Assembly: GCF_037094495.1 (NCBI RefSeq)
Contig: NZ_CP146612.1
Coordinates: forward strand, 682,001-746,000
DNA length: 64,000 nucleotides
Source: Dehalogenimonas sp. W
GTDB taxonomy: Bacteria > Chloroflexota > Dehalococcoidia > Dehalococcoidales > Dehalococcoidaceae
Direction: 5' to 3'
The notes under the pieces were generated by a model. It was given only the letters and a program-made list of their open reading frames with translations. It had not been told where the DNA came from and made no database searches. The position numbers and the translations under genes are program-made. Shown in pieces: positions 3,051-52,600 of this stretch. Numbering within the stretch: the stretch's first letter is position 1; every line of letters begins with the position of its first letter.

Positions 3051-3070
3051 GCGTCGCTAATCACAAATAA

Positions 3071-3103: not shown

Positions 3104-3111
3104 GTTATCCC

Positions 3112-3140: not shown

Positions 3141-3141
3141 T

Positions 3142-3175
3142 ATTGCAAAAGGTCGCAATAACAATGAGTTGCAAT
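3142..3175. promoter_or_regulatory. Probable metal-regulator operator (ATTGC repeats)
   Basis: ATTGC at 3142-3146 and GCAAT at 3155-3159 form an inverted repeat with an 8-bp spacer. A further TTGCAAT half-site overlaps the start codon region at 3169-3175. The array covers the predicted transcription start, a typical place for repression by a Fur, Zur or Nur protein. That the neighbouring regulator binds here is inference. Confidence 0.55.
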
Positions 3176-4585: not shown

Positions 4586-4611
4586 GTATAGCTGATCAGG
4601 ATATATCTTCC

Positions 4612-8522: not shown

Positions 8523-8612
8523 TTATTGAACAGTTATCAAAAGAAGAAGGAAAGAGCGTTTACACTCTTGAAAAGCTGAATTTGAGAAGCAGATTACAGT
8601 GACCTTGCCCGT

Positions 8613-9356: not shown

Positions 9357-9364
9357 CGGGTTGC

Positions 9365-10057
9365 TTAGCGCCTTCCGCCCATGAGGAGCATGACGAAGTA
9401 CAGTAGCTGCATTACGGCCTGGAGCATGGCGGCCACATAGGTTAGCGCCGCTGCCGACAACACCGCTGAGGCACCGTTCATTTCGGTAACCGAGGCCAGC
9501 CCAGTGGAACGGAGCATGATCCGGGCTCGAGTGGAGGCGTTAAACTCCACCGGCAGGGTGATGACGGAAAAGACGACGGCAGCTCCGAAAAGTGCCACGC
9601 CGGCCCAGGCGATATTAAGCCCGAAAGCGGTGCCGAAACTGTAAAGGATGAAACCTAAAAACACTAAAATGAAGCCGAAGTTGGAGCCGAGGCTGGCTAC
9701 CGGGTAAATGGCATTACGGATTTTAAGGGGGGTGTAGGCGGTCGCATGCTGCACAGCATGACCGACCTCATGGGCCACAATCCCCAGCGCCGCCACCGAG
9801 GACTTGTTGGCCACATCGGGTGACAGCCGGAGCACCCGGCCGCGCGGGTCGTAGTGGTCGGATAGTTTACCCTTGGACAGTTCAACCCGGACTTCCTGAA
9901 GATTGTGCTGGTCCAGCAGCCAGCGGGCGGCGGCCAGCCCGGTCATGCCGCGGTCATTGGCAATCTTGCTATATTTGCCGAAAGTTGAAGAAACCCGCCA
10001 CTGGGCATAAAGCATCAACAGCAGCGGAGGTATGATAAATGCCAGATAAAGTCCCAT
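9365..10057 (-). CDS. Membrane zinc metallopeptidase, YugP family
   Basis: A 230-residue membrane protein. An N-terminal helix is followed by a conserved soluble part with the zinc-protease motif AHEVGHAVQH near residues 93-102, then several membrane helices. A Gly-Arg-Arg C-terminus completes it. This organisation matches the YugP-like family (putative neutral zinc metallopeptidase), whose substrates are not known. It ends 8 bp before the start of the Crp/Fnr gene on the same strand, suggesting one transcript. Confidence 0.85.
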   Translation of the reverse strand: MGLYLAFIIPPLLLMLYAQWRVSSTFGKYSKIANDRGMTGLAAARWLLDQHNLQEVRVELSKGKLSDHYDPRGRVLRLSPDVANKSSVAALGIVAHEVGHAVQHATAYTPLKIRNAIYPVASLGSNFGFILVFLGFILYSFGTAFGLNIAWAGVALFGAAVVFSVITLPVEFNASTRARIMLRSTGLASVTEMNGASAVLSAAALTYVAAMLQAVMQLLYFVMLLMGGRR

Positions 10058-33929: not shown

Positions 33930-35285
33930 TCAGCTTCCAGAACCGTCCGGCAGGATTATCCGGAAGGTACTGCCCTCACCCGGCGCGCTCTCCACTTCCA
34001 TCCCCCCGCGGTATATCTGCGCCGTCCCCTGGACAATGGACAGCCCCAGCCCGGTGCCTTCCACCCGACGGTCAATGCGGTAGAATCTCTCCCCCAGGTG
34101 GGGCAGGTGTTCCGGGCTGATGCCGATGCCGGTGTCGGTTACTCTTATGATGATTTCGCCGTCCTGTTGTGCCAGCGTGAGGTTGACCTTGCCGCCCGGC
34201 GGCGTGTATTTCACCGCGTTGGACAGCAGATTGTCCAGGAGCCGGTCAAACTGTTCCGGCTCACCAAAGATACTGACCCCCGGTTTTATTTCGGCAGTCA
34301 GTTCAATATCTTCGTTAGCGGCAGGGGCCTGCCACCTGTTCACGGCCTCTTCCGCCAGTTTAGAAAGCTCCAATTCAGCACTTTTCGCTGGCCTGGGCCC
34401 GGCGTCCAGTCCCGCCAGTGTCATCAGGTCATCCACTATCGCCTGCATTTTGTCGGTCCGTCCGATAATGTTTTCCAATGATTGGCGATACTCCTCCGGC
34501 GTCCTCTCTTTCATCAAAGCTACCTCGGCGGATGATCTGATGCCGGTCAGCGGCGCTGTCAGATCGTGTGAGGCGTCGGCGGTGAAGCGGTGCTGCCGCT
34601 GGATAAAGCCGTGGATACGGTCAAAGAGTGCGTTGAGTGTACCGGAAAGCCGGCCCAGTTCGTCTCTATGCTTTACCGGTATCCGTTCTTCCAGCTTCGC
34701 CGGGTCAATCTTCTCGGCAGTATCAGTGATCACCCGTACCTGTCTTAAAGAACTATTGGCCAGTACCCAACCGGCAATTGCAGCGATAATCAGGGCGCCG
34801 GGTAAGGTCATGAATAAAATGTTTCTATAGGTCTTGAGGGCCGCTTGAATATATGCCGTGTCGCGGGCCACCACTACCAGTTTATCTGATCCGGGCGTCA
34901 GGCTTATGAGATACAAACGTGACTGTCCGTCAACGGAATTCATTGAATGGGAATTGATACCCGTTTGCCAGTCTGTGATTCCGCGGAGCGTTTCCTGAAT
35001 GACGGTGTTTGAAGGGCTGTCCCCGATTAACGATTTGGAATTCAGGTCATAAACAAAGAAGGAACTGACTGACTTATCTTCCAGTTCGGCTAACGCCTGA
35101 GGGTATTCGTCACTGGGTATAGTTGAGAGCGTGTTCAGTGCTTCTATGATATCTTCAGCAAGCGAGTTATTTAGATTGGACACCAGGCCGAAAGATAACA
35201 TCAGGGAAGATGCAATGGACATGATCACCAGCGTGGACAGCAGGACAACGGAGTAAAGTCCGGTTAGTTTGAGTTTGACACTCAC
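33930..35285 (-). CDS. Sensor histidine kinase of second OmpR-type system
   Basis: A membrane kinase of 451 residues. Helix 1 (about 5-32) is followed by an extracytoplasmic sensing domain of about 130 residues with no recognised fold and by helix 2 (about 165-190). HAMP, the H-box ASHDLTAPLTGIRSS and an ATPase domain (LLSNAVKYTPPGGK, DTGIGI, GTGLGLSIVQG) follow. The H-box has Asp-Leu-Thr-Ala where most kinases have Glu-Leu-Arg-Thr. The GTG start at 35285 overlaps the regulator stop (GTGA); a longer upstream frame inside the regulator gene is rejected. Confidence 0.9.
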   Translation of the reverse strand: MSVKLKLTGLYSVVLLSTLVIMSIASSLMLSFGLVSNLNNSLAEDIIEALNTLSTIPSDEYPQALAELEDKSVSSFFVYDLNSKSLIGDSPSNTVIQETLRGITDWQTGINSHSMNSVDGQSRLYLISLTPGSDKLVVVARDTAYIQAALKTYRNILFMTLPGALIIAAIAGWVLANSSLRQVRVITDTAEKIDPAKLEERIPVKHRDELGRLSGTLNALFDRIHGFIQRQHRFTADASHDLTAPLTGIRSSAEVALMKERTPEEYRQSLENIIGRTDKMQAIVDDLMTLAGLDAGPRPAKSAELELSKLAEEAVNRWQAPAANEDIELTAEIKPGVSIFGEPEQFDRLLDNLLSNAVKYTPPGGKVNLTLAQQDGEIIIRVTDTGIGISPEHLPHLGERFYRIDRRVEGTGLGLSIVQGTAQIYRGGMEVESAPGEGSTFRIILPDGSGS

Positions 35286-35950
35286 GATCTCAGCCTGTAG
35301 CCTTCCCCCCTTACCGTCTGTAAAGGTCCGGTACGGGCGTCCCACGCCAGTTTCAACCTCAGTTTGGCAATATGGCTGTCAATGACATTAGATTCGTAAT
35401 TGCAATCCGTGCCGCGGATACGGTCTTCCATTTCCAGCCGGGTTATCAGCTTGTTCGGGTTGGTGATGAAGTATTCCAGTATCCGGTATTCAGTTGCGGT
35501 CAGCGCAATCTCCCGGCCGTTGAGATTGACCTGATGGCATGTAGTATCAACGCTAACATCCCCCACCGCAATCTCCGGTGATCGGTTTCCGGTCAAACGT
35601 CTGTTCAGCGCCTGAATTCGGGCCAGTAGCTCTTTGTACTCAAAGGGCTTGCCCAGATAATCATCCGCTCCGGAATTGAGGCCGGTTACTCTGTCGTCTA
35701 TCTCTTTTCTGCCGGTCAGCATGAGGACGGGGATATTCAAACCTTGCCGTCTCAGTGTCCGGCAGACTTCTAACCCATCCTTGTCCGGCAGTGACAGGTC
35801 CAGTATCACCAGGTCAAAGTCGGCAACTCCGGCGAAGTGTACTCCTGAAGCGCCGTCATGGACGCATTCAGCCACGTGACCGTTCTCCCCCAGCACCTGT
35901 TTGATGTCGCAACAGAGTTCTTCGTCGTCGTCAATAACCAGAATTCTCAT
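35282..35950 (-). CDS. OmpR-family response regulator (candidate master of the 36-45 kb block)
   Basis: A 222-residue regulator with receiver motifs VIDDDEE, LVILDLSLPDKDG (Asp acceptor), LMLTGRKE and YLGKPFEYKEL, then an OmpR winged helix with ALTATEYRILEYF and IDSHIAKLRLKL. It is translationally coupled to its kinase. Immediately beyond its start codon, at 36001-36033, lies a promoter element matching three further cassettes in the next 7.5 kb. These share 11-bp-spaced direct repeats 10 bp from the -10, the layout used by OmpR/PhoB-type activators. Control of those promoters by this protein is inference. Confidence 0.92.
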   Translation of the reverse strand: MRILVIDDDEELCCDIKQVLGENGHVAECVHDGASGVHFAGVADFDLVILDLSLPDKDGLEVCRTLRRQGLNIPVLMLTGRKEIDDRVTGLNSGADDYLGKPFEYKELLARIQALNRRLTGNRSPEIAVGDVSVDTTCHQVNLNGREIALTATEYRILEYFITNPNKLITRLEMEDRIRGTDCNYESNVIDSHIAKLRLKLAWDARTGPLQTVRGEGYRLRS

Positions 35951-36000
35951 ACCGTAGTACTATTTACCCATTACTAAATTCTTTTCAGAATCCGTGTTTT

Positions 36001-36033
36001 CTTCATCTGGCCTTCATCTTCGTATGGTAGTCT
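36001..36033 (+). promoter_or_regulatory. Diverged copy of the TTCATC direct-repeat promoter
   Basis: CTTCATC at 36001-36007 and 36012-36018 (11-bp period) is followed after 10 bp by a weak -10, TAGTCT (36028-36033). Aligned with the cassettes at 38.4, 40.9 and 43.5 kb it keeps TTCATCT, TTCAT and TGGTA at identical spacing. It faces away from the regulator gene, towards 36066 and 36248, and could also influence the regulator promoter divergently. Confidence 0.65.
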
Positions 36034-36065
36034 GTTTTAGCGGTATCCCAAAAAGGAGGCTATCG

Positions 36066-36095
36066 GTGAAAAGAAATGTCTCCGCTCTTCATTAA
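36066..36095 (+). CDS. Very short ORF with strong ribosome site (leader peptide or gene stub)
   Basis: An AGGAGG ribosome site (36055-36060) is followed five bases later by GTG and nine codons (MKRNVSALH) before TAA. The placement, about 26 bp after the -10 of the TTCATC promoter, is that of a real translation start. The peptide may be a leader, or the 5' stub of a gene replaced by the AT-rich sequence that begins here. Confidence 0.35.
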   Translation: MKRNVSALH

Positions 36096-36247
36096 CGAAG
36101 TCTTAGAATAATAGACCATCATAACTTCTACGAATAATAACATGTTTACATTGGTGACGCTAAAATCTCAAATAGGATGGTGGAGAAATGATATGAAATT
36201 ATTGTCCAGAGTTGTTTCGAATTTGTCATTTTGGAGGGAGTAATAAC

Positions 36248-37132
36248 ATGTCGACCAAAATTAGGATGCTATCATGTGTAATTAGTATGGTTTTTATTTT
36301 ATCAATACCCGTTTCAATTCATGCTGAACAAAACGAAGAATTTGTTGAATCTAAGGTGGAGGTGAGTGTAAATCAGGAGTCTTTTCTAGATATAGAACCC
36401 GTCGTGATTGAGCTAGTTTCTGATGGTAATATCTATGAAAAAACCGGCGTAAAACCGATGTTGTATGATGATGGGGTGGATGTCAAATCATTTGAAGATT
36501 CCGCTTTAGCTATTGATAGGTTTATGAAGACTTTCCAATTCAGTGAAAAGGATGTTATTGGTTATACAATCATGGGTACTACTGAAATCGTGTTGCTACG
36601 GACAAATCGCGATACTGTTGCTGAGTATATGTTTCAGGATGGGGAAGTGTTTGAATTTAACCTTTCGCTTGAAACTAAGGGAAGTTGGACGAGTGAAGAT
36701 GGCACGGTTACAATGTCTATCAGTGATTTAACCTTCTACGGCCCTGCTTCAGATAACAAAAAGGAAGACTTTAGACTGCTGTCAATCAGACAATATTATT
36801 ATTCTTACACTCAGTCGTACGCAGGTTTGTCTTGCTCTTATGTTGCAGCGGTGGAAGCTTGGCTAGATACTTCAGCTTGGGATTTTATCGCGGTTATTGA
36901 TTGTTGTTATGAAGTTCCTTCACTTAGCTTTTGGACAGATTGGGAAAATTCTGATGCAGCGGATCAGGGTGAGGAAGGTTGGGCAGGTGGTGACGCTGAA
37001 TTTTGCCAATTGTTGAACATAGATTATATTTATTTCATTTTCCACGAACAACATGGTGCATGGGTTACAATTACTTTAGGCGGCGCGACAAACCATGGGG
37101 GATATTCTGACTCTTGGTGGACCTTATGGTAA
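36248..37132 (+). CDS. Secreted protein of unknown function, AT-rich
   Basis: A 294-residue exported protein. The Sec signal MSTKIRMLSCVISMVFILS ends near VSIHA-EQ. The start at ATG 36248 is set by a GGAGGG ribosome site. The mature protein is acidic, with aromatic-rich C-terminal segments (SYAGLSCSYV-type region, EGWAGGDAEFC, SWWTLW) and five Cys in that half, which could form disulfides or a thiol site. The Cys and His positions recall papain-like or C39-like folds, but no family is claimed. Base composition is far more AT-rich than flanking genes, suggesting recent transfer. Confidence 0.75.
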   Translation: MSTKIRMLSCVISMVFILSIPVSIHAEQNEEFVESKVEVSVNQESFLDIEPVVIELVSDGNIYEKTGVKPMLYDDGVDVKSFEDSALAIDRFMKTFQFSEKDVIGYTIMGTTEIVLLRTNRDTVAEYMFQDGEVFEFNLSLETKGSWTSEDGTVTMSISDLTFYGPASDNKKEDFRLLSIRQYYYSYTQSYAGLSCSYVAAVEAWLDTSAWDFIAVIDCCYEVPSLSFWTDWENSDAADQGEEGWAGGDAEFCQLLNIDYIYFIFHEQHGAWVTITLGGATNHGGYSDSWWTLW

Positions 37133-37330
37133 AAATGGACTGAGATTATTTTTGATTTTATCACCGAATTGAAAAAGAGCGAGTTCCCGTTCAAAATCCG
37201 TCATTGTTGAGTTTAACAAGTATTTAGCTTCTCAAAGTCAAAGATAAATTCTACTGATTGGTGTTATTGGTAGATGACCAAATCAATATCGTATCGGACT
37301 CCGAGTTTTCAAAATAATAGGAGGCCCTGA

Positions 37331-38296
37331 ATGTTTAAGAAAAAATGGATTTCAGCCATTGCCCTGGTACTCGTGGTTACTTCGTTTGCCGGGTGTGATA
37401 CAGGGAAGGAAGCGGTATTCTCTATTACCTCTCCCTTGACCGACACGGAAACACGTTCCAATATCGTTAAGGTGGAAGGTACGGTTTCGTCCACCGCCTC
37501 GTCCGTTGAAATTAACGGTCAGTCCGCCTGGGTGGATAACGGTTCCTTTTTCGCCTGGGTGGAACTGGAGGAAGGGACCAATATCGTTAAAGGTACTGCC
37601 GTAATTGGCGGCACCAAACTGGATGATAGCGTTACTGTCACCTTTACCCCGAATCTGACGGTGTTTCTTGATTACCCCAACGGCGGTACCCAGGTTGATT
37701 ACCGGGTTTCGCCGGTGACTGTCAACGGCAGGGTAACGGTGCCCGGTGCGTCGGTCACGGTGAACGATTCGCCGGTTTCCGTTAATACCGACGGCTCTTT
37801 TTCCACAAAAGTTCAGCTTGGTGAGGATGGTGGAACTCTGGAAGTTATCGCCGTTTCAGGTGATGATCAGGACAGTTTGGTTTACTCCGTTCCTCTGGAT
37901 GACGCCGGCCATGTCGTTTTTGATCCCTATACCTCCGGTTTTCTGGACTACAACGGTTCAGTGGATTTTCCGGATTCAGTAACGGTCACTCGAGGCGACA
38001 TAACCGTGATGAACTGGACGCTGTTGACCGGAAAAAGCATTGACTCTCCCCAGGTGTATTATGTGACGATTACCGGCAAAGAGAATTATTCGGCCGGGGA
38101 TAAGCCGCTTCCGTCCGGCTTGAGCGTTACCCCGGTACCGGTTGATCCGGTTGTCTATCCGAATACCGAGTATTCATTGGCGTTTATCATTGAGGCGTCG
38201 GCGGACCTGACACCGGGAACTTATTCCCTTGAAGCCTCGGTCTTCGTCCAGGAAGGGTTCCGGAGTTCTCAGCGCATCGTGATAACAGTGGGGTAG
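37331..38296 (+). CDS. Lipoprotein with Ig-like (glucodextranase-B-type) repeats
   Basis: A 321-residue surface lipoprotein. The signal peptide ends at lipobox FAGC (Cys about 22). Two beta-sandwich repeats follow: VFSITSPLTDTETRSN with VKVEGTVSS and INGQSAWVDNGSF, then VFLDYPNGGTQVDYR with VTVNGRVTVPG and VNDSPVSVNTDGSF. Both share the pattern NG-x-V-x-VNx-DGSF of the glucodextranase-B or big-Ig type. A C-terminal beta domain completes it. The AGGAGG ribosome site is good. Likely a cell-surface binding or structural protein; no ligand is evident. Confidence 0.82.
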   Translation: MFKKKWISAIALVLVVTSFAGCDTGKEAVFSITSPLTDTETRSNIVKVEGTVSSTASSVEINGQSAWVDNGSFFAWVELEEGTNIVKGTAVIGGTKLDDSVTVTFTPNLTVFLDYPNGGTQVDYRVSPVTVNGRVTVPGASVTVNDSPVSVNTDGSFSTKVQLGEDGGTLEVIAVSGDDQDSLVYSVPLDDAGHVVFDPYTSGFLDYNGSVDFPDSVTVTRGDITVMNWTLLTGKSIDSPQVYYVTITGKENYSAGDKPLPSGLSVTPVPVDPVVYPNTEYSLAFIIEASADLTPGTYSLEASVFVQEGFRSSQRIVITVG

Positions 38297-38300
38297 CGTA

Positions 38301-38390
38301 ATGCTGGATTATCTATTAGAACAGATCACTCCGGAAAACCTGCATCATGAGGTTGATGTCGGGATTCCGGTTGGTAATGAAGCATGGTGA
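38301..38390 (+). pseudogene. C-terminal remnant of a MazE antitoxin
   Basis: A 29-codon ORF beginning five bases after the lipoprotein stop. Its peptide contains ITPENLHHEVDVGIPVGNEAW-like spacing of the MazE toxin-binding tail: ITPENLH, then ID/VD, then a terminal W (E. coli MazE ends with ITPENLH...DKEVW). The N-terminal AbrB-type DNA-binding domain is absent, and no mazF follows. It is read as debris of a toxin-antitoxin locus, though a short translated peptide is not excluded. Confidence 0.6.
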
Positions 38391-38416
38391 CCACCGGTGA
38401 ATAATCTTCATACTTG

Positions 38417-38475
38417 AAAAAATTCTCTAAAAACCCCGTTTCGTTCATCTCCCGTTCATGTTGGGGTGGTATAAT
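38417..38475 (+). promoter_or_regulatory. TTCATC direct-repeat promoter cassette, copy A
   Basis: Two CGTTCAT units (38442-38448 and 38453-38459) with an 11-bp period lie exactly 10 bp upstream of TATAAT (38470-38475). No -35 box is present. The 59-bp stretch is identical to copy C (43428-43486), including an A/T-rich upstream part. The expected start near 38482 would transcribe 38536, 38939 and 39043. Confidence 0.85.
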
Positions 38476-38535
38476 CGCTCCGGATAACGTCTATTAAGCC
38501 GGATTCCTAAATCCCATAAATGGAAGGGGGCCGTA

Positions 38536-38892
38536 GTGTTAAACACCTCTGTCAGCTCAACGGAGCCGGTCAAAAATACCTGGCTGCCTACCGGCGCGGG
38601 TTTCCTCAACATCATCAACGGCACTATTGAGATACTTGGCGGTCTGACGCTTATCGGTGCTGTTGAGGTGCTGTCGGGAATCAGGAACACCTGGGTGGGT
38701 GACACCTTTTTTGGTTTACCGCTGATTATCGCTGGAATAGTCGCTGTTATCGGCGGTATCTATTCTTTCCGAAGAAGGTCTTGGAAGCTGGCTCTCGCTG
38801 GAGCTGTCTGTTCATTATTTTTACTCCATTGGACGCTGACCGGCATATTTTCCATCATCCTCCTCTTCCAATCCAGAAAGGAATTCAAATAG
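38536..38892 (+). CDS. Small multi-helix membrane protein, unknown function
   Basis: A 118-residue protein starting at GTG 38536 behind GGAAGGGGG. There are three to four predicted membrane helices (about 24-45, 56-77, 85-106), a short Arg-rich loop YSFRRRSWK and a charged C-terminus. It is the first gene under promoter cassette A and lies upstream of a 35-residue peptide and an ABC-2 permease. No family is recognised. Confidence 0.7.
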   Translation: MLNTSVSSTEPVKNTWLPTGAGFLNIINGTIEILGGLTLIGAVEVLSGIRNTWVGDTFFGLPLIIAGIVAVIGGIYSFRRRSWKLALAGAVCSLFLLHWTLTGIFSIILLFQSRKEFK

Positions 38893-38938
38893 AAAGAATG
38901 GATGCCAGAGTTCATAAATCGGAAAGGAGTATGTACTG

Positions 38939-39046
38939 ATGTCGGGATTAGGGCTGATAGTATTCATCGGTAGTGCATTACTGATAGCCGGGGTCACATA
39001 TGTCGTAGTGAAAGCGTTGTTAGCGTATATCAACAAGAAAAAATGA
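38939..39046 (+). CDS. 35-residue single-helix membrane peptide
   Basis: The ATG at 38939 follows GGAAAGGAG. The peptide is one membrane helix (SGLGLIVFIGSALLIAGV) with a basic tail NKKK. Its stop overlaps the ABC permease start (ATGATG at 39043-39048), so it may be translationally coupled to the permease and act as an accessory subunit. Too short for family assignment. Confidence 0.5.
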   Translation: MSGLGLIVFIGSALLIAGVTYVVVKALLAYINKKK

Positions 39047-40047
39047 TGTTAAGACTCTGGCTCCTTGAACTAAAGAAGATTTTCAAAGGGAAATCCTTCT
39101 ATCTTGTGACTCTTTTACTGTTACTGTTTACCGTAATCACCATGGCGGGGCCGGGGGATTACTATGAACACCAGGTCATTGCCACCACAGATAGAATGAA
39201 TGAAGCTATCGCTGCTCTTGGAGCAGACTATGACCTTGTATATTCTGAGGCGCTACCCGCCGGTTTTGACCGTAGCCGGTATCCGCTGCGGGATGAAAGC
39301 GGCAATAAAATCCCTGGAAATGTTGAGGTTTACCAGCAGATGTACCAGGAATATTATCAGGGACAAATTGACGCCCTTACGGCCGATGGCGCTGAATTTT
39401 CGTTCTCAAGCTTAATGTCGCCCGGCAAAATTGTTCCCATCATGCCGGTTTTTGCCGTTATTCTGGGAGTGATTGTTTTAGCTATGGAATATAATGGCGG
39501 TGTTTACCGTCTGATCATCGGGCGCGGTGTCAAAAGGGGCGATCTGATGTGGGCTAAATTCCTTGCGTTAGCCTCATTGGCGTTGTTGCTGGCAACGGTG
39601 TTGGTGATTACTTCATTTATTATCGGTCTGGCGAATTACAACAGTCTGGCCGCGGCGCAACCGCCCGTTATTGATCCCGGAGCCGTGTTTGAAATCTATT
39701 GGGTATTATTCCTCCTGCTGTTTGCTTATATGGTGTTTGGCGGGGTGCTGGGTACGCTCCTAGCCTCGCCGGTGCCGGCGTTGGTGGCAGGGGTGGTCAT
39801 TGCCTTTATGCTGTCTCAGTTTTTTGTATATGGGCTGACGCCTTGCGGGGACGACATGCTGAGTGCAATTTCCCCGTTAACCCTGGGCTACAATTTCAAC
39901 AGTCTGACCCACCTGTTGTGGGATTCGTCCGATAAAGTGGAATGTTACCGGAGTGTCCCCTGGGCTGTCGGGATGGCGTTGGCGTATATCACGGTTATGA
40001 TTATGTTTGTTCAAGCCAACTTCGGTCACAAGGAGTTGAAGTCTTGA
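39043..40047 (+). CDS. ABC-2 type permease (copy 1, no adjacent ATPase)
   Basis: A 334-residue membrane protein with an N-terminal helix (about 18-35), a large extracytoplasmic loop to about residue 130, then five to six helices and a C-terminal HKELKS. It is a paralogue of the permease at 43534: shared features are LELKK/LEFRK at the start, the YPLRDESGNKIPGN versus YPVNDEEGNPIPEN loop, and the matching SPLTLGYNFNS / SPLSLGYNYGS and KELK ends. No ATPase lies next to it. It may pair with the ATPase at 44580. Confidence 0.85.
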   Translation: MMLRLWLLELKKIFKGKSFYLVTLLLLLFTVITMAGPGDYYEHQVIATTDRMNEAIAALGADYDLVYSEALPAGFDRSRYPLRDESGNKIPGNVEVYQQMYQEYYQGQIDALTADGAEFSFSSLMSPGKIVPIMPVFAVILGVIVLAMEYNGGVYRLIIGRGVKRGDLMWAKFLALASLALLLATVLVITSFIIGLANYNSLAAAQPPVIDPGAVFEIYWVLFLLLFAYMVFGGVLGTLLASPVPALVAGVVIAFMLSQFFVYGLTPCGDDMLSAISPLTLGYNFNSLTHLLWDSSDKVECYRSVPWAVGMALAYITVMIMFVQANFGHKELKS

Positions 40048-40072
40048 CCGGTAGTATTAATGGTAGTATTAT
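40044..40072 (+). promoter_or_regulatory. Promoter/operator of the vapBC-type module
   Basis: TTGACC (40044-40049, overlapping the permease stop) and TATTAT (40067-40072) are 17 bp apart. The spacer carries GGTAGTATTA twice (40050-40059, 40062-40071). Repeats over the core promoter fit autorepression by a ribbon-helix-helix antitoxin. Confidence 0.65.
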
Positions 40073-40110
40073 TAGTATGCCGATATTATGTTGCAGGATG
40101 GAGGATTCAA

Positions 40111-40404
40111 ATGGGTGGCAAAGCGAAGACGGAAAAAATGTCGGTTACTCTGCCCAAGGAATTAGCCGGGGAAATACGTACGGTCGCTTCTCAGGGAGAA
40201 ATCAGCGCCTTTTTTACCGAGGCGTTGGAGTATTACCTGGCCCGGCGCAAGCAGATGATTGCCTTGGAGAGAGGCTTGGGTGCCTGGAAAGATAAAAGCC
40301 ATCCTGACCTGATGACTCCTGAGGATTCAACAGCCTGGGTTCGCGGTATCAGAACGGCGGGTGAAGTACGGCTGCCCGGGCCTGTAGAGACTAGTGTCGG
40401 GTAG
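40111..40404 (+). CDS. vapB: Ribbon-helix-helix antitoxin (VapB-like)
   Basis: A 97-residue protein. MSVTLPKELAGEIRTVA near residues 10-25 is the beta strand and first helix of a MetJ/Arc-type DNA-binding fold, followed by a polar C-terminal tail that would wrap the toxin. ATG 40111 is set by a GGAGG ribosome site. Its 3' end overlaps the PIN-toxin gene by 11 bp, the normal antitoxin-first arrangement. Confidence 0.85.
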   Translation: MGGKAKTEKMSVTLPKELAGEIRTVASQGEISAFFTEALEYYLARRKQMIALERGLGAWKDKSHPDLMTPEDSTAWVRGIRTAGEVRLPGPVETSVG

Positions 40405-40804
40405 TCGGGTCAAAGGCATCGCGTGTGTCGTTGATACGGATATCGCTATTGATTTTCTTAGAAAACGAGAATACGCCCGCATACTGTTAAATCGGTGGGC
40501 CGATGACGGTCTGCTGGCTGTAAGCACACTCACCCACCTTGAAATATACCAGGGTATGAAGCCCGCAGAGGAAGCGGACACCAATGCTTTCCTGGATGGT
40601 CTGGTTTCCATTGGTGTTGATGTCCCGGTTGCCCGGCAGGCGGGTATGATGTTAAGGGCGCTTCGTTCAACAGGGATAACCATCGGTATGGCTGATGCTA
40701 TTATCGCCGCTACTGCCCTTTGGCTGGGGGTTCCGCTGTTGACCAACAACGTAGAGCACTATCCGTTTACTGATTTGCAGGTCATCAGGGGTTTGAAAAT
40801 TTAA
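40394..40804 (+). CDS. vapC: PIN-domain ribonuclease toxin (VapC)
   Basis: A 136-residue PIN nuclease that cleaves RNA when freed from its antitoxin. The acidic metal-binding residues are visible: VVDTDIAIDFLR, LTHLEIYQGM, GMADAIIAATAL and the terminal LTNNVEHYP. The start is GTG within the antitoxin gene, implying coupled translation. The pair forms an insertion between the permease and the next promoter cassette. Confidence 0.9.
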   Translation: MSGSRVKGIACVVDTDIAIDFLRKREYARILLNRWADDGLLAVSTLTHLEIYQGMKPAEEADTNAFLDGLVSIGVDVPVARQAGMMLRALRSTGITIGMADAIIAATALWLGVPLLTNNVEHYPFTDLQVIRGLKI

Positions 40805-40863
40805 GTAATTGGTAGCTGACCACCAGGCGGATGGGATGTCCGATTTGTTCCGGTTTCTCACAA

Positions 40864-40921
40864 AAAAAAACCTCAAAAACCCCGTTTCGTTCATCTCCCG
40901 TTCATGTTCGGGTGGTATAAT
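40864..40921 (+). promoter_or_regulatory. TTCATC direct-repeat promoter cassette, copy B
   Basis: CGTTCAT at 40888-40894 and 40899-40905, then 10 bp, then TATAAT at 40916-40921. The core is identical to copies A and C apart from one base in the spacer (TTCG for TTGG) and small differences in the upstream A/T tract. The expected start near 40928 is 32 bp before the lipoprotein ATG 40960. Confidence 0.85.
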
Positions 40922-40959
40922 CATCCTCCGTGGCGGCCTAATTAAAAAGCGGGGGTAAA

Positions 40960-42018
40960 ATGAAAAAGTGGCTGTTTCCCTCTGTCGTTTTTATTCTGTT
41001 GATGACTTCAGCGTGTTTTTCGCCGGTGTCTGAACCGGTGAAGACCGCTGTCCCTGTTTTGGATTCCTTGCCGGTATATGATTTGAAACGGGGGGATGAC
41101 CTGGTTCCCACCCCCGGCGGCCTGGCTTATCGAGCCTTGGTTGCCTCAGCAGAAGATACTGAATATTGGCCGGCTGTTGAAACCAATCCGGTTGATCTTT
41201 ATCGGGCTCAAGGCCGGGAGAGTCTTAATTATCGGAAAAATATTGAGACTGCTCCAGGTGAAACGCATTACAGCATGTTTTACCTCAGCCGTCCAAGCGG
41301 TTTTTCAGCTGAGGAGGAATTGAATTTTTATACCGCCGATCTCCCTGAAAGCATCCAGCTTTCCCAGTATGGTAGCGGCGGGTTGTGGTTGCCCGGGACG
41401 CTGGCCTCAGCCTTGATAATCACGGTTTCCGAAAACATTGAGCCGGGTGAGCACTCGTTTGAAATCGGGTTGCGTACTTCGGAGTTTGATTACGGCCGGT
41501 TTCCAGTTCGTTTGAAGATTGTCGGCACCCCCGCCTTGGCGATGCCTTTCAATGAACCGTTACTGTCCCTGAATTTGAATCATACCATGGCCGGGGATCG
41601 GGTGGTGTTGGATGTTTACCCTGACGGCTTGATGGTTCAGATTTACGATGAAGGAATCCGGTTCCCGGTTTTTGGGAACCCTGCCACCCGCACCTGGAAA
41701 ACTGCTGTGCTTTCGGAATCCGAACTGAACAGTTTACTGGCAACCGTATCCGCGAGTGGCTTTTATGAACTGGCGTCTGCTTATTCCTTTCCCGGCCGCC
41801 TTAACGAAAGCGGATTGTCTTTCGGGGACATGATATTGTCCATAACCGCAAGCGTCAACGGCCTGACTCATACGGTGAATGCAACCGGCTATCTGTCTCC
41901 TGACGGTGACCGGTCATTCCCGGATATGCCGGCGCAACTGTCTCAAGTCTATGAAGCCATCGTTAGTCTGACCGATAAATTGGTTACCGTCATCCAACAA
42001 GAGATACCTCAGGGGTAG
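40960..42018 (+). CDS. Lipoprotein of unknown function
   Basis: A 352-residue lipoprotein with lipobox MTSAC (Cys about 19), first gene under cassette B. The mature part is predicted mostly beta-strand, with no recognised motif. The middle contains NIEPGEHSFEIGLRTSEFDYG, reminiscent of the 'PGTYSLEASVFVQEGF' strand in the Ig-like lipoprotein at 37331, so the two may share a terminal beta domain. No function proposed. Confidence 0.75.
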   Translation: MKKWLFPSVVFILLMTSACFSPVSEPVKTAVPVLDSLPVYDLKRGDDLVPTPGGLAYRALVASAEDTEYWPAVETNPVDLYRAQGRESLNYRKNIETAPGETHYSMFYLSRPSGFSAEEELNFYTADLPESIQLSQYGSGGLWLPGTLASALIITVSENIEPGEHSFEIGLRTSEFDYGRFPVRLKIVGTPALAMPFNEPLLSLNLNHTMAGDRVVLDVYPDGLMVQIYDEGIRFPVFGNPATRTWKTAVLSESELNSLLATVSASGFYELASAYSFPGRLNESGLSFGDMILSITASVNGLTHTVNATGYLSPDGDRSFPDMPAQLSQVYEAIVSLTDKLVTVIQQEIPQG

Positions 42019-42058
42019 TGGGGCAGAATAATGATGTGTTTGAAAGGACTATGAAATC

Positions 42059-42646
42059 TTGAAGCGTTTCAGGCAATCTGTTTTTCTGGTGCTAGCGGTA
42101 ACCCTTCTATTGTCGGGAGTGTCATGTATTGATCAAAAGGACACGTCTGATATTATGGTCAATACCGGTTTAATCCAGACTCAGGAATTCATCGTTACCT
42201 CAGAATCAACGGAGTTGGAGACGTCGGTCAGGGGTTCTATCTTGCTTTTCGGCAATGATAGCGTCACCGAACGTATCTCAATTATAGCCTGGGTCAATAT
42301 TGATCCGAACGATTGGGGTGGGGTTGTCTTTTATATCCCGGGAAACTGGAATATTTCCGGTGTTACCAGTAGTTATCAACAAAATACAACACCCGATAAT
42401 GAAGCAGTGATCATCTGGCGTACCGGTGACACCGATGAAGAATACGATAAAAGAATAGAAATCGGAATGAACCGTTATACACCGTCAGGAGGTGGAACCG
42501 GAGTGGTCGTTATTGAACTTGACAGGATTGATAAAAGTGCCGATTCATCGGCAATATTCAGGGTACTGATTGGAGTGGGTAGTGATGAGAAAGACGGAAT
42601 TAGGATTTCTCATCCTGATTATAAAGTAATTGAGGTGCTGAATTAG
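42059..42646 (+). CDS. Lipoprotein of unknown function
   Basis: A 195-residue lipoprotein, TTG start, with lipobox SGVSC (Cys about 23). The mature domain is beta-rich and more AT-rich than the surrounding housekeeping genes. It follows the 40960 lipoprotein by 40 bp and is probably on the same transcript. No family recognised. Confidence 0.7.
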   Translation: MKRFRQSVFLVLAVTLLLSGVSCIDQKDTSDIMVNTGLIQTQEFIVTSESTELETSVRGSILLFGNDSVTERISIIAWVNIDPNDWGGVVFYIPGNWNISGVTSSYQQNTTPDNEAVIIWRTGDTDEEYDKRIEIGMNRYTPSGGGTGVVVIELDRIDKSADSSAIFRVLIGVGSDEKDGIRISHPDYKVIEVLN

Positions 42647-42701
42647 TCGGAGAATAATAGAAAAAAATGCTAACTATAATAGTGCTTCAACGAGGGTTCA
42701 A

Positions 42702-43034
42702 ATGAGGAATATAGTTTCCAGCTTAATCATAGTCACCAGTATTATTGCAGGTATCATGTTGTTCGTATTGATGAAACCGGACTCTGCCCCAATCATCACG
42801 ATCGGCTTTTTAGCCAATTTGGTGGTATTTATCGTTGCCTTGATTAATTTAATGCGTAATCGCTTGAGGCAATTAATAATAGGCGGAATAGCCGGCGGAG
42901 TTTTGTTGCTGGTAATTGTAGCAAACGATGTTGTTGGCGGAACGGGCCATCAATTACCTGTAATAGTGGGAGTATATTCCAGTTTTTTGGTTTATTGTTT
43001 TTTGTTGGGATGCTGGTCGCCGCGGGAATCGTAG
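42702..43034 (+). CDS. Membrane protein, 5' part of a probably frameshifted gene
   Basis: A 110-codon ORF with three helices (about 5-23, 31-49, 60-80) and the start of a fourth before the frame runs into LGCWSPRES and stops. The next reading frame (-1) continues with hydrophobic helices from 42995. The join lies at T TTT TTG (42998-43004), a textbook -1 slippery heptamer in the zero frame. Either a programmed frameshift, a mutation or a base-call error in the T-run could explain it. A GAGGG ribosome site precedes ATG 42702. Confidence 0.6.
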   Translation: MRNIVSSLIIVTSIIAGIMLFVLMKPDSAPIITIGFLANLVVFIVALINLMRNRLRQLIIGGIAGGVLLLVIVANDVVGGTGHQLPVIVGVYSSFLVYCFLLGCWSPRES

Positions 43035-43234
43035 TCAAAGGCCAAAGCCGGGTTTTGGCTTTAGCCCCGGCAGTGACGATATATCTGATCTATTCAGTAT
43101 TATTGTTACAAACTCGTGCGGGTTGGTACGTCATATTGGTTGAATCTTTTCTGATCTTCCTGCCGTTTATTCTTGTGTTGGGATTATCTACAGTCTTTGT
43201 TCTTCACGGATCAACCAAACAAAGTCACAGGTAG
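42995..43234 (+). CDS. Membrane protein, 3' part (-1 frame) of the same gene
   Basis: Seventy-nine codons in the -1 frame relative to 42702-43034, overlapping it by 40 bp. It encodes FFVGMLVAAGIVVKG followed by two more helices and a basic end. It has no ribosome site of its own (nominal start TTG inside the T-run), so it reads as a continuation of the upstream gene rather than a separate one. Together the two parts would make a protein of about 180 residues with six helices. Confidence 0.5.
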   Translation: MFFVGMLVAAGIVVKGQSRVLALAPAVTIYLIYSVLLLQTRAGWYVILVESFLIFLPFILVLGLSTVFVLHGSTKQSHR

Positions 43235-43253
43235 TTTATAGGAAGCAAATCTG

Positions 43254-43421
43254 ATGTTGAATCCGGGTTTTTGGCCAAGAGCTGGTATCTTATTTGTCGG
43301 GATGATTCTTACGGCAACAGGGATGATTACCGGTTCGGTTTTTGCCTCGGTAATGGGAGCTGTTTTCTTTCTCGTTGGCGTAGTCGGAGTTGTCGCCCAT
43401 TTCATGAAAACCGACGGATAA
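43254..43421 (+). CDS. 55-residue two-helix membrane protein
   Basis: The ATG at 43254 follows AGGAAG at suitable distance. The product MLNPGFWPRAGILFVGM and onward has two helices (about 9-27 and 31-50) joined by a Gly turn, with an HFMKTDG end. It lies just before promoter cassette C. No family recognised. Confidence 0.55.
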   Translation: MLNPGFWPRAGILFVGMILTATGMITGSVFASVMGAVFFLVGVVGVVAHFMKTDG

Positions 43422-43427
43422 TATTTT

Positions 43428-43486
43428 AAAAAATTCTCTAAAAACCCCGTTTCGTTCATCTCCCGTTCATGTTGGGGTGGTATAAT
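43428..43486 (+). promoter_or_regulatory. TTCATC direct-repeat promoter cassette, copy C
   Basis: CGTTCAT at 43453-43459 and 43464-43470, 10-bp gap, TATAAT at 43481-43486. Identical over 59 bp to copy A, 5 kb away, although the genes around it differ. It drives the permease-ATPase pair at 43534 and 44580. Confidence 0.85.
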
Positions 43487-43533: not shown

Positions 43534-44583
43534 ATGTCCGACACCAGCAGTCTCTTCCGGCTCAGCCGCCTGGAGTTCCGGAAGCTCCGCAAAGGTGCAT
43601 CGCTCTACATCATCGCGGCGGTCATTATCCTTTTCTCCATACTGATAAGCTCCAATGCTAGTGATTCCTACAATTTTCAGGTGCGGCAGTTAGACCAGAA
43701 TTATTCTGAGATAGTTTCCCAACTGGATGCCGGTCATATGGTATTGTTCTCGAATTTTATTCCGGACGACTTTGACTGGCGGGCCTACCCGGTAAACGAT
43801 GAAGAGGGCAACCCTATTCCAGAAAATATAGAGTTCTGGAAGGACTTCTACCGGGATGCCGTCCAGGCGGAGAAAGACAAGCTGACCGCTGAAGACGGAC
43901 GTTTTTCGCTTGCGCAGCTAACCAGTAGCGCCGCTATCAGCTTTTCCAATCTTATTCCGGTGCTGGGAGTGGCGGCCGGTGTCAGCCTGTTTGCCGGCGA
44001 ATTTCGTAATTCCACCTACCGGCTGATGTTATCCCGCGGCATCCGCCGTAACTCCCTGATGAGTGCCAAAATACTCACGGTAATCGGCATGTCGCTATTC
44101 TTTGCCCTGGTGCTTGGTCTGGCGGTGACGCTGAGCGGTTATATGTCCTATTCCGGTTTGTCCGCTGCGGCGCCGGCGGCGTTCAGTTTCGGCGCTTTCC
44201 TGTCTATTATCTGGCTGGGGGCTTTGATGTTCCTGGGCTACACCATGGGCGGGGCAGCCCTGGGCATACTGCTGGCTTCGCCGGTAACCGCCATGACCGT
44301 CGGCCTGATCATTGCCTTTGTCGGCGGCACCATCTTTCTGTTCGCCCATCCGGGTATGGACGGCATCATCGGTTCGTTGTCGCCGCTGTCGCTGGGCTAT
44401 AACTATGGTTCCATGATTCAGGAAACCTGGGTCAACACCACCAGTTTGGGGGTTACCGTTCCGGGCGAAGGGCGTAATGACTACCGTGACCTGCCGGCGG
44501 CCTTCATCGGCGCCTTCATCTATATCAGCTTGTACACCACAGTTGTCTTTACCGTGTTCGGTCGCAAGGAGTTGAAAGCATGA
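43534..44583 (+). CDS. ABC-2 type permease (copy 2)
   Basis: A 349-residue permease with one N-terminal helix, a large loop of about 110 residues and five further helices. ATG 43534 is chosen because GGAGGTG lies four bases upstream; GTG 43528 is possible. It is paralogous to the protein at 39043. The stop overlaps the ATPase start (ATGA at 44580-44583), so the two are made together. The architecture resembles permeases of bacteriocin-immunity or multidrug ABC-2 exporters. Confidence 0.9.
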   Translation: MSDTSSLFRLSRLEFRKLRKGASLYIIAAVIILFSILISSNASDSYNFQVRQLDQNYSEIVSQLDAGHMVLFSNFIPDDFDWRAYPVNDEEGNPIPENIEFWKDFYRDAVQAEKDKLTAEDGRFSLAQLTSSAAISFSNLIPVLGVAAGVSLFAGEFRNSTYRLMLSRGIRRNSLMSAKILTVIGMSLFFALVLGLAVTLSGYMSYSGLSAAAPAAFSFGAFLSIIWLGALMFLGYTMGGAALGILLASPVTAMTVGLIIAFVGGTIFLFAHPGMDGIIGSLSPLSLGYNYGSMIQETWVNTTSLGVTVPGEGRNDYRDLPAAFIGAFIYISLYTTVVFTVFGRKELKA

Positions 44584-45494
44584 ATGTAAGTAACAATATT
44601 CTGGAAACTGAAAATCTGACCAAACGCTTCGGCGAGGTCACCGCCGTTAAGGATTTGAATATCACCGTTGAGCGCGGACAGGTCTTCGGCTTCCTCGGCC
44701 CCAACGGCTCCGGTAAAACCACCACCATTTCCTGTGTCCTGGGTCTGCTGTCTCCCACCTCCGGGAAGGTACGGCTGTTTGGTGAGCCGTGGCAGGCGGA
44801 GTCTTTACGCCGGGTCGGCGTGGTCATGGATCTGCACGGCTTCTACCCCAATTTCTCCGGCCGGGACAACGTTCAGATTTTTGGCGAACTGACCGGGCCC
44901 GTGTCCGATGAGCGGGTGGATGAAGTGTTGAAACTGGTCGGTCTGGCCGACCGGGCTAAAAGCAAGTTCCGCACCTATTCCATGGGTATGAAACAACGCC
45001 TGGCGGTGGCCCTGGCCCTGCTGAATGACCCGGAGTTTCTGATACTGGATGAACCCACCAACGGTATGGACCCGGAAGGTATTGTTGAAATCCGTAATCT
45101 GATTAATGATCTCAACCGGCAGGGCAAGACTATCCTGCTGGCGTCTCATCTGCTGTCGGAGGTGGAGCAGGTGTGTACCCATCTGGCTATCCTCAAGAAA
45201 GGCGTGGTCGTCAGTCAAGGGGCACTGGCCGACCTTATCAGCGGCGCCGGTCAGGCCGGGGTCGTCTTTGAGATCATCACCTCTGACCTGGCGGCATCGG
45301 CCGCTGTGCTGGAAAAAGCCGGCTACGAGGTTAAGCAGGGCCGGGACAGGGTTCTGGTGTCCGCTCCCGCAGACGCGGCTGAAAAGATATCCGCCGCTCT
45401 GGCCGGAGAGAAGCTCTATGTCACCGAGATGCGCCGCACCACCGGCAGTCTGGAAAGTGTCTTTATTGAGGCCACCCAGCCGGGCAAGAAATAG
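44580..45494 (+). CDS. ABC transporter ATPase (CcmA/DrrA type)
   Basis: ATPase partner of the ABC-2 permease, 304 residues. Walker A is GPNGSGKTTT near residue 40, the signature is YSMGMKQRLAVA, Walker B is FLILDEPTNGMDP and the switch His is in LLASHLLSEVEQ. The C-terminal 80 residues form a small regulatory domain common in DrrA/CcmA exporters. It is the only ATPase in the block and may serve both permeases. Confidence 0.93.
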   Translation: MNVSNNILETENLTKRFGEVTAVKDLNITVERGQVFGFLGPNGSGKTTTISCVLGLLSPTSGKVRLFGEPWQAESLRRVGVVMDLHGFYPNFSGRDNVQIFGELTGPVSDERVDEVLKLVGLADRAKSKFRTYSMGMKQRLAVALALLNDPEFLILDEPTNGMDPEGIVEIRNLINDLNRQGKTILLASHLLSEVEQVCTHLAILKKGVVVSQGALADLISGAGQAGVVFEIITSDLAASAAVLEKAGYEVKQGRDRVLVSAPADAAEKISAALAGEKLYVTEMRRTTGSLESVFIEATQPGKK

Positions 45495-48642: not shown

Positions 48643-48749
48643 CCCGGTACCGTTCCCATCCAGTCATTGCGAAAGCGCGAAGCGCTTGTGGCAATCCAGC
48701 AAGAATAGTCTGAGACCGTTTTGTAGGGGCTTGGCATGCCAAGCCCGCC
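48643..48749. repeat. Palindromic repeat A, copy 1 (107 bp)
   Basis: Identical as far as read to 48991-49097. It contains GTCATTGCGAAAGCGCGAAGCGCTTG-type inverted pairs (AGCGCGAAGCGCT) and the perfect 20-bp palindrome GGGCTTGGCATGCCAAGCCC. The ATTGCGA...GGCAATCC pattern resembles REP/MITE-like intergenic elements. It yields a shadow ORF on the minus strand, not a gene. Confidence 0.8.
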
Positions 48750-48886
48750 CGGTAAAAAGCCTGACAGCTGACGGCTGACACCTTACACCTTACGCGCCGC
48801 CGCCGAAGCAATCTCGGTTTCCCCCATTGTCATTACCCGTGGAAACGGGTAATCCATAAGAACCGATACTGTACGATTGCTTTCGG

Positions 48887-48973
48887 CCTGGTACCCCGTT
48901 TCGGACATTTGGGTTTGTAATTTAGAAATTGTATGGGATTTGGTGCTTAGAGCTTGGAATTTCCATCGCAACG
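48887..48973. repeat. Repeat B, copy 1 (87 bp)
   Basis: Begins CCTGGTACCCCGTTTCGGAC and matches 49096-49182 with only a few substitutions. In copy 1 it is separated from repeat A by about 137 bp; in copy 2 A and B adjoin. Confidence 0.75.
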
Positions 48974-48990
48974 TAACCATGCCGCGTCCA

Positions 48991-49097
48991 CCCGGTACCG
49001 TTCCCATCCAGTCATTGCGAAAGCGCGAAGCGCTTGTGGCAATCCAGCAAGAATAGTCTGAGACCGTTTTGTAGGGGCTTGGCATGCCAAGCCCGCC
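48991..49097. repeat. Palindromic repeat A, copy 2 (107 bp)
   Basis: Second copy of the element at 48643-48749, same length and orientation, 348 bp apart start to start. The right end runs directly into repeat B copy 2. Confidence 0.8.
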
Positions 49098-49182
49098 TGG
49101 TACCCCGTTTCGGACATTCGGATTTGTAATTTAGACATTGTTTGGGATTTGGTGCTTAGAGCTTGGAATTTCCGTCGCGACG
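49096..49182. repeat. Repeat B, copy 2 (87 bp)
   Basis: Second copy of the element at 48887-48973, about nine-tenths identical by eye, directly abutting repeat A copy 2. Confidence 0.75.
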
Positions 49183-49273
49183 TTGCTCAGGCCCGCCCTG
49201 TAAAGGCTGAAAGCTGATAGCTGACGGCTGACAGCTCGCCTAAAATATATTTCCAAAATGGGACATTTACCTC

Positions 49274-49674: not shown

Positions 49675-52600
49675 ATGTTTACACACCTTCACGTTCATAC
49701 TGAATTCAGCCTGCTGGATGGCATGTGCCGCATTCCGGTGCTGGTCGCCCGTGCCAAAGAACTGGGCATGACCGCCCTGGCCATTACCGACCACGGCAAT
49801 ATGCACGGCGCCCTCCGGTTCTACCGGGAGTGCCGCGCTCAGGGTATCAAGCCCATTATCGGCTGCGAGGTCTATGTCGCCCCCGGTTCCCGGCTGGATA
49901 AAACCGCCGCTGACAAGAATCATCGTCACCTGGTGCTGCTGGCCCGCGATCTCACCGGTTACCGTAACCTGCTCAAGCTGGTTTCCCTGGCCAATACCGA
50001 TGGCTTCTACTACAAGCCCCGCGTGGATAAGGAAATCCTCGCCCAGTACCGGGAAGGGTTGATTGCCATGTCGGCCTGTCCTTCCGGCGAGGTGCCGCGG
50101 CTGATCATGGAGAGCCGGCTGGATGAGGCCCGCGAGGCAGCTGCCTGGTACCGGGACAACTTTAATGGTGAGTTTTACTTTGAGATCCAGCGGCATCCAA
50201 TGCCGGAACTGGATAAAATCAACAACGCCCTCATCGCCCTGTCCAAAGAACTGGATATTCCGCTGACGGCCACCGGGGATGTGCACTACGTCCGGCGGGA
50301 AGATGCCCAGACCCATGACCTGCTGCTGTGCATCGGCACCGGCGCCATGGTGAAGGATACCGCCCGGATGAAAATGCAGGCGGACTCGTTCTACCTGAAA
50401 AGCGAAGCTGAGATGGCGGAGCTTTACCGGGACATTCCGGAGGCGCTGGCAAATACCGGTAAGATTGCCGATAAATGCGACCTGACGCTGGAGTTCGGGC
50501 GGCTGCACCTGCCGCAGATAGACCGGCCGGCCGGCATGACCTCCGACGAATATGTCGCTGATCTATGCTATCAGGCACTGCCGAAATACTACCCCGATGC
50601 TTCCGACGCGGTGAAGGAACGACTGGCTTATGAGCTGGATGTCATCAGACAAACCCAGTTCGCCGATTACTTCCTGGTCGTCTGGGACATCATCCGGTTC
50701 GTCAAGGAACGCGGCATCTACTTCGGCGTCCGCGGCTCGGCGGCGGCTTCCATCGTCCTGCGCTGCCTGGACATCACCGAGGTTGATCCGCTGGAATACA
50801 AGCTGGTTTTTGAACGCTTCCTGAACATTGAACGCAAGGAAATGCCGGATATTGACATGGACTTTCAGGATGACCGCCGTGACGAGGTCATTGAGTATGT
50901 GTCGGAAAAATACGGACTGGATCATGTTGCCCAGATCATCACCTTCGGCACGCTGGGTGCCCGGGCGGCCATCCGGGACACCGGTCGGGCGCTGGGCATT
51001 GATCTGGCGGATGTGGACCGGGTCGCCCGCCTGATTCCCTTCGGTCCCAATATGACGCTGGATAAAGCCCTGGAAGAAAACACTGAACTGCGCGAGGCGG
51101 TAGCCTCAGACGGTACCGTGCAGAAGATAATTGATGCTGCGCGCCAGGTTTCCGGTTTATCCCGGCATGCCAGCACCCACGCCGCCGGCGTGGTCATTTC
51201 CAAGGACCCGCTGGCGCTGCATACCCCGCTGCAACGCCTGAACCGGGAATCATCTCAGGGCGGCAAGGCCGACCTGGTGATGACCCAGTACCCCATGGAA
51301 GACATCGGGCTGATTGGTCTGCTGAAGATGGACTTCCTTGGTCTGGCCAACCTGTCCATCCTGTCGCGGGCACAGCAGATTATCGGCGAACGCCGCGGTC
51401 AGCCGCTGGACGTGCACAGTATTCCGCTGGATGACGCCAAAACCTTTAAACTGCTGGCCGCCGGCGAAACCATGGGCGTCTTCCAGTTGGAAGGCGTCGG
51501 CATGCGCCGCTACATCAAGGAATTGAAACCGACCCATTTTACCGACATCGCCGCCATGGTCGCCCTTTACCGGCCCGGCCCGATGGAGCAGATTCCGCGC
51601 TTTATTAAAAGCAAACACGGCGAGGAACCTATTACGTACCCGCACCCGGCGCTTGAGGAGATACTGCAGGAAACCTATGGCGTTATCGTCTATCAGGAGC
51701 AGGTGCTCTTTATCGCCCGCACCTTCTCCGGCTTCTCGTTAGGCCAGGCGGACATCCTGCGTAAGGCCATGGGTAAAAAGAACCCGGAAGTCATGCAGAA
51801 ACAGAAGCAGAACTTTATCGCCGGGGCGCTGAAAAACGGTTATACCGCAGAACTGGCCGCCGAAATCTTCGGTCTGATTGAGCCGTTTGCCGGTTACGCC
51901 TTTAACAAAGCCCACGCCGTCAGTTATGCCCTGATTGCCTATCAGACGGCGTATCTCAAAGCTAATTTTCCGGTAGAGTACATAGCCGCCTTCCTGGCCA
52001 CCCAGCGTGATGTCGCTGAAAAGGTCGCCGCCGCCGCCGTGGAATGCCGCCGCCTGGGTCTTGAACTGCTGCCGCCGGATATCAATGCCAGCGATGTCAA
52101 TTTCACCATTGAAGAAACCGGCAAAGGCTCGGCCATCCGTTTCGGTCTGGCGGCGGTCAAAAATGTCGGTGAAACGGCGGTCGCCGCGTTGGTGGCGGAA
52201 CGCAACACCGGCGGGCCTTTCCGCGGCGTAGAGGATTTCTGCCGCCGGGCTGATGCCGCCTGCATGAACCGCCGCGTCCTGGAGAGCCTGATTAAGGCCG
52301 GAGCGCTGGATTCCTTCGCTGACCGGGGGGCTTTATTACATAATGCCGGCCGCCTTCTGGAGTTTGCCGAACGGGAACGCCGTATCCGTGATTCAGGTCA
52401 GGGGACGCTGTTTGATCTTTTCGGCGGCGTGGCCGAAGCCCCGCCGATGGTGCTGGAACTGGACGGCGGCAGTGCCTCGCTCAATGATATTCTGGCCTGG
52501 GAGAAGGATTTGCTCGGGCTGTATATTTCGGCGCATCCTTTTTCCCGCTTTGTCGGCCATATTGACCATGACACCACCGCCACCTGCGGTGAGATCACTG

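Follow-up and report, generated by a model that had tools for sequence, protein, structure and literature searches.

A repeated putative promoter element of PhoB/PhoP type linked to a clade of OmpR-type regulators in Dehalogenimonas sp. W

We analyzed a 64,000-nucleotide stretch of Dehalogenimonas sp. W (contig NZ_CP146612.1, positions 682,001 to 746,000; hereafter the window), in which three copies of a tandem-repeat promoter and a diverged fourth copy lie next to an OmpR/PhoB-type two-component system. The results suggest, with a probability of about 0.82, that these four elements are promoters activated by the phosphorylated OmpR/PhoB-type regulator of one lineage-specific clade, probably including paralogues of the regulator in the window, with a signal from the kinase, an output in the cell envelope, and promoter cassettes that were copied. 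The window is part of a single 1.77-Mb contig, and the comparison set comprised 60 relatives, seven of them genomes of the same genus. The central features are as follows, in window coordinates.

33930 to 35285, - strand: sensor histidine kinase with HAMP, HisKA, and HATPase_c domains (Pfam)
35282 to 35950, - strand: OmpR/PhoB-type response regulator (Pfam PF00072, E 2e-26; PF00486, E 1e-18)
36000 to 36033, + strand: putative regulator-adjacent operator/promoter, TCTTCAT-N4-CCTTCAT-N10-TAGTCT with the TG of an extended -10, facing 36248
38417 to 38475, + strand: 59-bp putative promoter cassette, first of two identical copies (repeat search)
38442 to 38475, + strand: putative promoter copy 1, tandem half-sites and extended -10 (pattern scan)
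40888 to 40921, + strand: putative promoter copy 2 (pattern scan)
43428 to 43486, + strand: 59-bp putative promoter cassette, second identical copy (repeat search)
43453 to 43486, + strand: putative promoter copy 3 (pattern scan), conserved 5' of the orthologous ABC-2 gene in the related genome G001

Pattern scanning of the 64-kb window revealed exact CGTTCAT-N4-CGTTCAT-N10-TATAAT at 38442, 40888, and 43453 on the + strand, compared with 0.01 such sites expected by chance from shuffles, and no further site within three mismatches. The segments 38417-38475 and 43428-43486 were identical over exactly 59 bp, with a flanking match on neither side and the final base of the -10 closing the identity. 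The third segment, 40864-40921, equaled this cassette at 52 of 58 positions, and the repeat search of the window returned a single three-copy family. A first-pass annotation of this DNA had described both the 59-bp identity with its near-identical third copy and the arrangement of half-sites, 10 bp, and TATAAT with no -35 box, and these were borne out at all three copies. It had overlooked a TG located one base 5' of the -10 (extended -10, TGnTATAAT) in all four sites. No -35 box was found, the best hexamer at spacers of 15-19 bp matching TTGACA at only two of six positions, which fits with an extended -10 at every site. The presence of TGnTATAAT together with the absence of a TTGACA-like -35 is the composition of an activator-dependent promoter. 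In PhoB-type activation, a regulator dimer occupies the place of the -35, ten bases from the -10.

The fourth site is also on the + strand, and since the regulator is read leftwards from 35950, the site faces the gene at 36248 and not the regulator. Thus a diverged copy with the common geometry does exist beside the response regulator gene, as had been noted earlier, but it would serve the divergent gene. Counted in the CTTCATC register, its spacing to TAGTCT is 9 bp; a spacing of 10 bp results only when the half-sites are read in the register used for the three strong copies. A comparable divergent element adjoins the orthologous regulators in G001, G005, G008, and G010.

Searching the whole genome with TTCAT-N6-TTCAT-N10-TANNNT gave eight matches, compared with one for a reversed-pattern control: four in the window, two at 252-254 kb, and two at 1363-1365 kb. 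Among the 13 OmpR-type regulators of the genome, the closest paralogues of the window regulator (717285) were 1359723 (46%) and 257003 (41%), and the distance from each of the eight sites to one of these regulators was 0.7-8.2 kb. Under random placement, the probability that all three independent clusters fall at these regulators is approximately 3e-5. Half of the sites were therefore outside the window, where the first-pass annotation had seen a local regulon, but all tracked this regulator or its paralogues and there was no unrelated scatter. A half-site-degenerate pattern with the correct spacing gave 12 genome matches versus 0 for the control; with the spacing one base longer, it gave 2 versus 4. 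The four additions were two GTTAA-type sites around a fourth regulator (623457, 43%), CTGTCAT-N4-CTGTCAG beside 1359723 (at 1360430), and a match at 51326 that is part of another conserved element. This other element, at 51326-51357 of the genome and outside the window, reads GTAAT-N6-GTAATAACC followed by TGnTA and is a distinct tandem element with an 11-bp period and an extended -10. It has one counterpart each in G001, G005, G006, and G010. In the window's genome a further OmpR-type regulator (55006) is found at a distance of about 3.6 kb, and the element may be the operator for a second type of regulator.

The link between sites and regulators recurred in the relatives. Of the seven same-genus genomes, two had several matches to the TTCAT pattern, G001 with six and G005 with five. 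Single matches occurred in G006 and G008. A few genomes at greater distance had matches too, the majority of them unrelated-looking, and there were zero matches in G003, G004, and G009, which are without close clade members. TG was present at the extended -10 in all 21 matches of the family, though the pattern left it free, and in G001 the site, leader, and gene are kept while the upstream DNA diverges. In a maximum-likelihood tree, regulators with adjacent or nearby sites fell into one 22-row clade (support 100/99) with three subclades. We then examined the 130 bp 5' of each regulator gene for tandem KT(C/A)A(T/G) half-sites directed away from the regulator. Half-sites with a period of 11 were present in 17 of the 22 clade members, as against 4 of the 25 other regulators, whereas periods of 8-10 and 12-14 gave at most one match each. 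When a -10 was also required, in a relaxed form because the stricter one was too stringent for regulator-adjacent sites, the counts were 11 of 22 and 0 of 25. In some clade members, three or four repeats were arrayed upstream. Outside the clade, the four positives were PhoB-like regulators of other families, as would be predicted for a geometry common to the whole OmpR/PhoB family. A profile search of genome contigs with the regulator alignment matched response regulators of a general kind across bacteria, none of them from a relative of this genus. These results support the earlier assignment of PhoB/PhoP-type geometry and promoter nature, and the association with orthologues and paralogues of the 35282 regulator.

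The two halves of each operator were found to covary. Across 22 distinct operators, the half-sites agreed at 61 of 66 variable positions, compared with 50.5 after shuffling, and 17 of the 22 had identical half-site cores (shuffle p 5e-5). GGTCAT was paired with GGTCAT, GTTAAT with GTTAAT, and GTTCAG with GTTCAG, and the GTTCAT variant behaved likewise. This is the pattern that two identical protein subunits reading both halves would give. Some of the sites entering these counts were first found by a scan favoring matching halves; the non-TTCAT variants were recovered also by the degenerate pattern, which keeps the two halves independent. A simple code from recognition helix to half-site was looked for and not found.

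The first-pass annotation had placed all four promoters under the 35282 regulator. Sole control by this protein was not supported, as two other loci carry the same operator with a paralogous regulator of their own, and sites in G001 and G005 are without a local one. The 33-bp site was identical at 720443, 725454, 1365221, and G005 534620, and the regulators of the other identical-site loci were 46% and 63% identical to that of the window. In the G001 region orthologous to 252-254 kb, an insertion sequence takes the place of the kinase and regulator, and G001 has no close orthologue of the 257003-locus regulator elsewhere (best 43%, compared with 75% in G005). Both sites are nevertheless kept, one of them identical over 33 bp, with conserved DNA starting at or shortly before the operator. 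In G005, three sites at 1666-1668 kb have no clade-type regulator in 20 kb. Two intact sites despite a lost local regulator are most simply read as trans control by a paralogue, and a recent loss in G001, without time for site decay, is possible. Because the operator is common to several loci, paralogues probably also control these promoters, and the regulon is likely not private to 35282. As a separate observation, locus L082 (G001:C1:1517000-1536900) contains a duplicated two-component locus at 1622-3234 and 7967-9987, one copy of which retains the kinase and has its regulator reduced to a C-terminal fragment.

These data bear on how far control extends beyond each locus. If control were strictly local and insulated, each regulator would act on the sites of its own locus only, and the common sequence would reflect duplication of whole loci. 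Clustering of the sites with regulators fits this, as does the variation of regulator-adjacent operators among paralogues (CTTCAT, CTGTCAT, GGTCAT, GTTCAG); however, the identity of the site between the window and 1365221 loci, whose regulators are only 46% identical, and the sites kept without a regulator in G001 and G005 make insulated control unlikely. Tentatively, at somewhat less than even odds, we propose that the regulon is distributed: several paralogous two-component systems would use one operator code, and cassettes of about 60 bp, copied in each lineage, would recruit new envelope genes, each species amplifying its own version. Use of the sites as Pho boxes by a global phosphate-type PhoB encoded elsewhere, with the local system incidental, was set aside as very improbable. 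The half-sites do resemble Pho-box halves, as in CTGTCAT-N4-CTGTCAG at 1360430, and also the GTTCA(C/T)C repeats of actinobacterial PhoP. The genome matches are nonetheless confined to three loci, each with a regulator of the same clade; the complete divergent element is absent from the DNA upstream of regulators outside the clade, and genomes without close clade members have zero matches. No phosphate genes were recognized at the site loci examined, phosphate genes not having been located genome-wide. Least credible, and likewise set aside, is the reading of the 59-bp repeat as a mobile or recombination element and not a promoter cassette. Two copies are identical with sharp ends, and insertion sequences lie near copies in G001, but the copies are oriented with the gene just 5' of the ribosome-binding site, with leaders of 25-60 nt at the strong sites of this genome, their identity ends exactly at the -10, and it is the core and not the whole repeat that is kept between loci and species.

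Several observations weigh against activation by regulators of this clade, which we still prefer. Some sites in G001 and G005 have no regulator nearby. Paralogues with a common operator do not have the same recognition helix, and the operator beside the window regulator is CTTCAT where the three strong copies have GTTCAT; the GTTCAT preference is thus not given by the regulator's own site. Sites inside one locus are also partly copies of each other and so are not independent.

The upstream DNA accompanying the sites differed among genomes. The amplified version in the window's genome has AAAAACCCCGTTTC upstream of the site, that of G005 has CAGCTTTGGG(T/C)T before GGTCAT-type sites at three places, and that of G001 has TTGTCATC(A/C)AAA before three sites. 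Each genome has thus amplified a version of its own, along with at least 12 bp of the DNA upstream. The proposal that the promoters were duplicated before differing genes stands, with the correction that copying was lineage-specific.

The regulator carries a receiver and a winged-helix Trans_reg_C domain, both above cut-offs, and thus belongs to the OmpR/PhoB family; its nearest solved structures are T. maritima DrrD (1kgs) and M. tuberculosis RegX3 (2oqr). The GTG start of the kinase gene overlaps the stop codon of the regulator gene. The genes behind the promoters are listed below, ABC standing for ATP-binding cassette.

36248 to 37132, + strand: secreted protein with signal peptide, behind the regulator-adjacent promoter, leader about 214 nt
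38536 to 38892, + strand: small membrane protein of 118 amino acids, with a relative behind a G005 site (1667287)
39043 to 40047, + strand: ABC-2 type permease (PF12679, E 1.5e-12)
40960 to 42018, + strand: lipoprotein behind promoter copy 2, lipobox, no Pfam match
42059 to 42646, + strand: lipoprotein-like gene after 40960, with a related gene behind a G005 site (1666178)
43534 to 44583, + strand: ABC-2 permease behind promoter copy 3 (PF12679, E 2.7e-16)
44580 to 45494, + strand: ABC transporter ATPase (PF00005, E 1.9e-31), 4-nt overlap with permease 43534

At the strong sites of this genome, the promoter has the same orientation as the gene and lies just 5' of the ribosome-binding site and start codon, and the 39043 permease is probably co-transcribed from copy 1. 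The 36248 protein had no Pfam match, and AlphaFold2, run on the single sequence without alignment, gave no reliable fold for it, with a mean predicted local distance difference test score of 33.8. Across genomes, most of the first genes behind sites encode a signal peptide, lipobox, or transmembrane segments by a simple hydropathy rule with no background rate, and Pfam searches of the target proteins found DUF6612 in two lipoproteins and little else. These exported, lipoprotein, and membrane targets suggest that the output is most likely a cell-envelope response. In several genomes, a conserved secreted family with a motif like PSEIEAMYPMSAEAE (L010 6507-7169, L075 5913-6608, L083 8240-8917, L085 11094-11765, and others) sits directly behind the regulator-adjacent promoter; Pfam gave only a weak Inhibitor_I36 match, and at the window promoter an unrelated-looking secreted protein is in its place. 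In G005, a site of this type (L078, 4966) lies 5' of a gene (4281-4841) for an ECF-like sigma factor, as judged by eye, a hint that regulation may run as a cascade there. A small ribbon-helix-helix/PIN-type toxin-antitoxin-like gene pair (translation judged by eye) lies at 40114-40804, separating promoter copy 1 from copy 2. At 48643-49183 of the window, two near-identical intergenic units of 112 and 89 bp, with starts 348 and 209 bp apart, are apparently a dispersed non-coding repeat.

In the proposed mechanism, the adjacent membrane kinase (33930) would supply the signal to the regulator, and a tandem dimer of the phosphorylated regulator would sit on the two half-sites, with their 11-bp period, in the place of the -35. 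Positioned 10 bp from the extended -10, the dimer would recruit RNA polymerase, and expression of exported proteins, lipoproteins, and ABC-2 transporters would follow. Duplication of the roughly 60-bp cassettes within each lineage may have brought new genes under the same control.

The regulators of this organohalide-respiring lineage have hardly been studied, and few genetic tools exist for it. In the present case a regulator clade, its operator, covarying half-site variants, and a short target list can all be predicted from sequence and are checkable in vitro. The system also lends itself to the questions of how targets are divided or shared among paralogous two-component systems and of how promoter copying enlarges regulons. 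The regulator clade, the operator code, and the shared multi-locus regulon appear to be undescribed, while the geometry and logic are of the known PhoB/PhoP type. The position of the sites relative to the -10 is that of the E. coli PhoB class. M. tuberculosis PhoP binds direct repeats as a tandem dimer, with 7-bp half-sites and a strict 4-bp spacer (PMC4832192), and the present sites share the half-site length, spacer, 11-bp period, and tandem arrangement. Unlike those of PhoP/PhoB, the half-sites are GTTCAT, GGTCAT, or GTTAAT and not TCACAGC, the -10 is extended, and the targets are envelope proteins. The Bce-like systems PsdR/ApsR of Lacticaseibacillus paracasei are likewise paralogous, with adjacent ABC transporters and similar operators, and their cross-regulation is documented (PMC10858260), whereas cross-control in the present system is only predicted. 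The genes here encode ABC-2 permeases, lipoproteins, secreted proteins, and a HAMP-type kinase; with transporters matching ABC-2 families and a HAMP domain in the kinase, the locus does not classify as a Bce-like detoxification module, in which a BceAB-type transporter and an intramembrane-sensing kinase would adjoin the regulator. The rdhPS kinases of Dehalogenimonas and Dehalococcoides are described as having no transmembrane helices, and these systems are associated with genes for reductive dehalogenases (PMC13390414). Membership in this group would call for a soluble kinase beside rdhAB. The present system resembles them in adjoining its presumed targets in this lineage but differs in its HAMP kinase and envelope targets; as none of the ten scanned proteins (33.9-45.5 kb) was a reductive dehalogenase either, it was not assigned to rdhPS.

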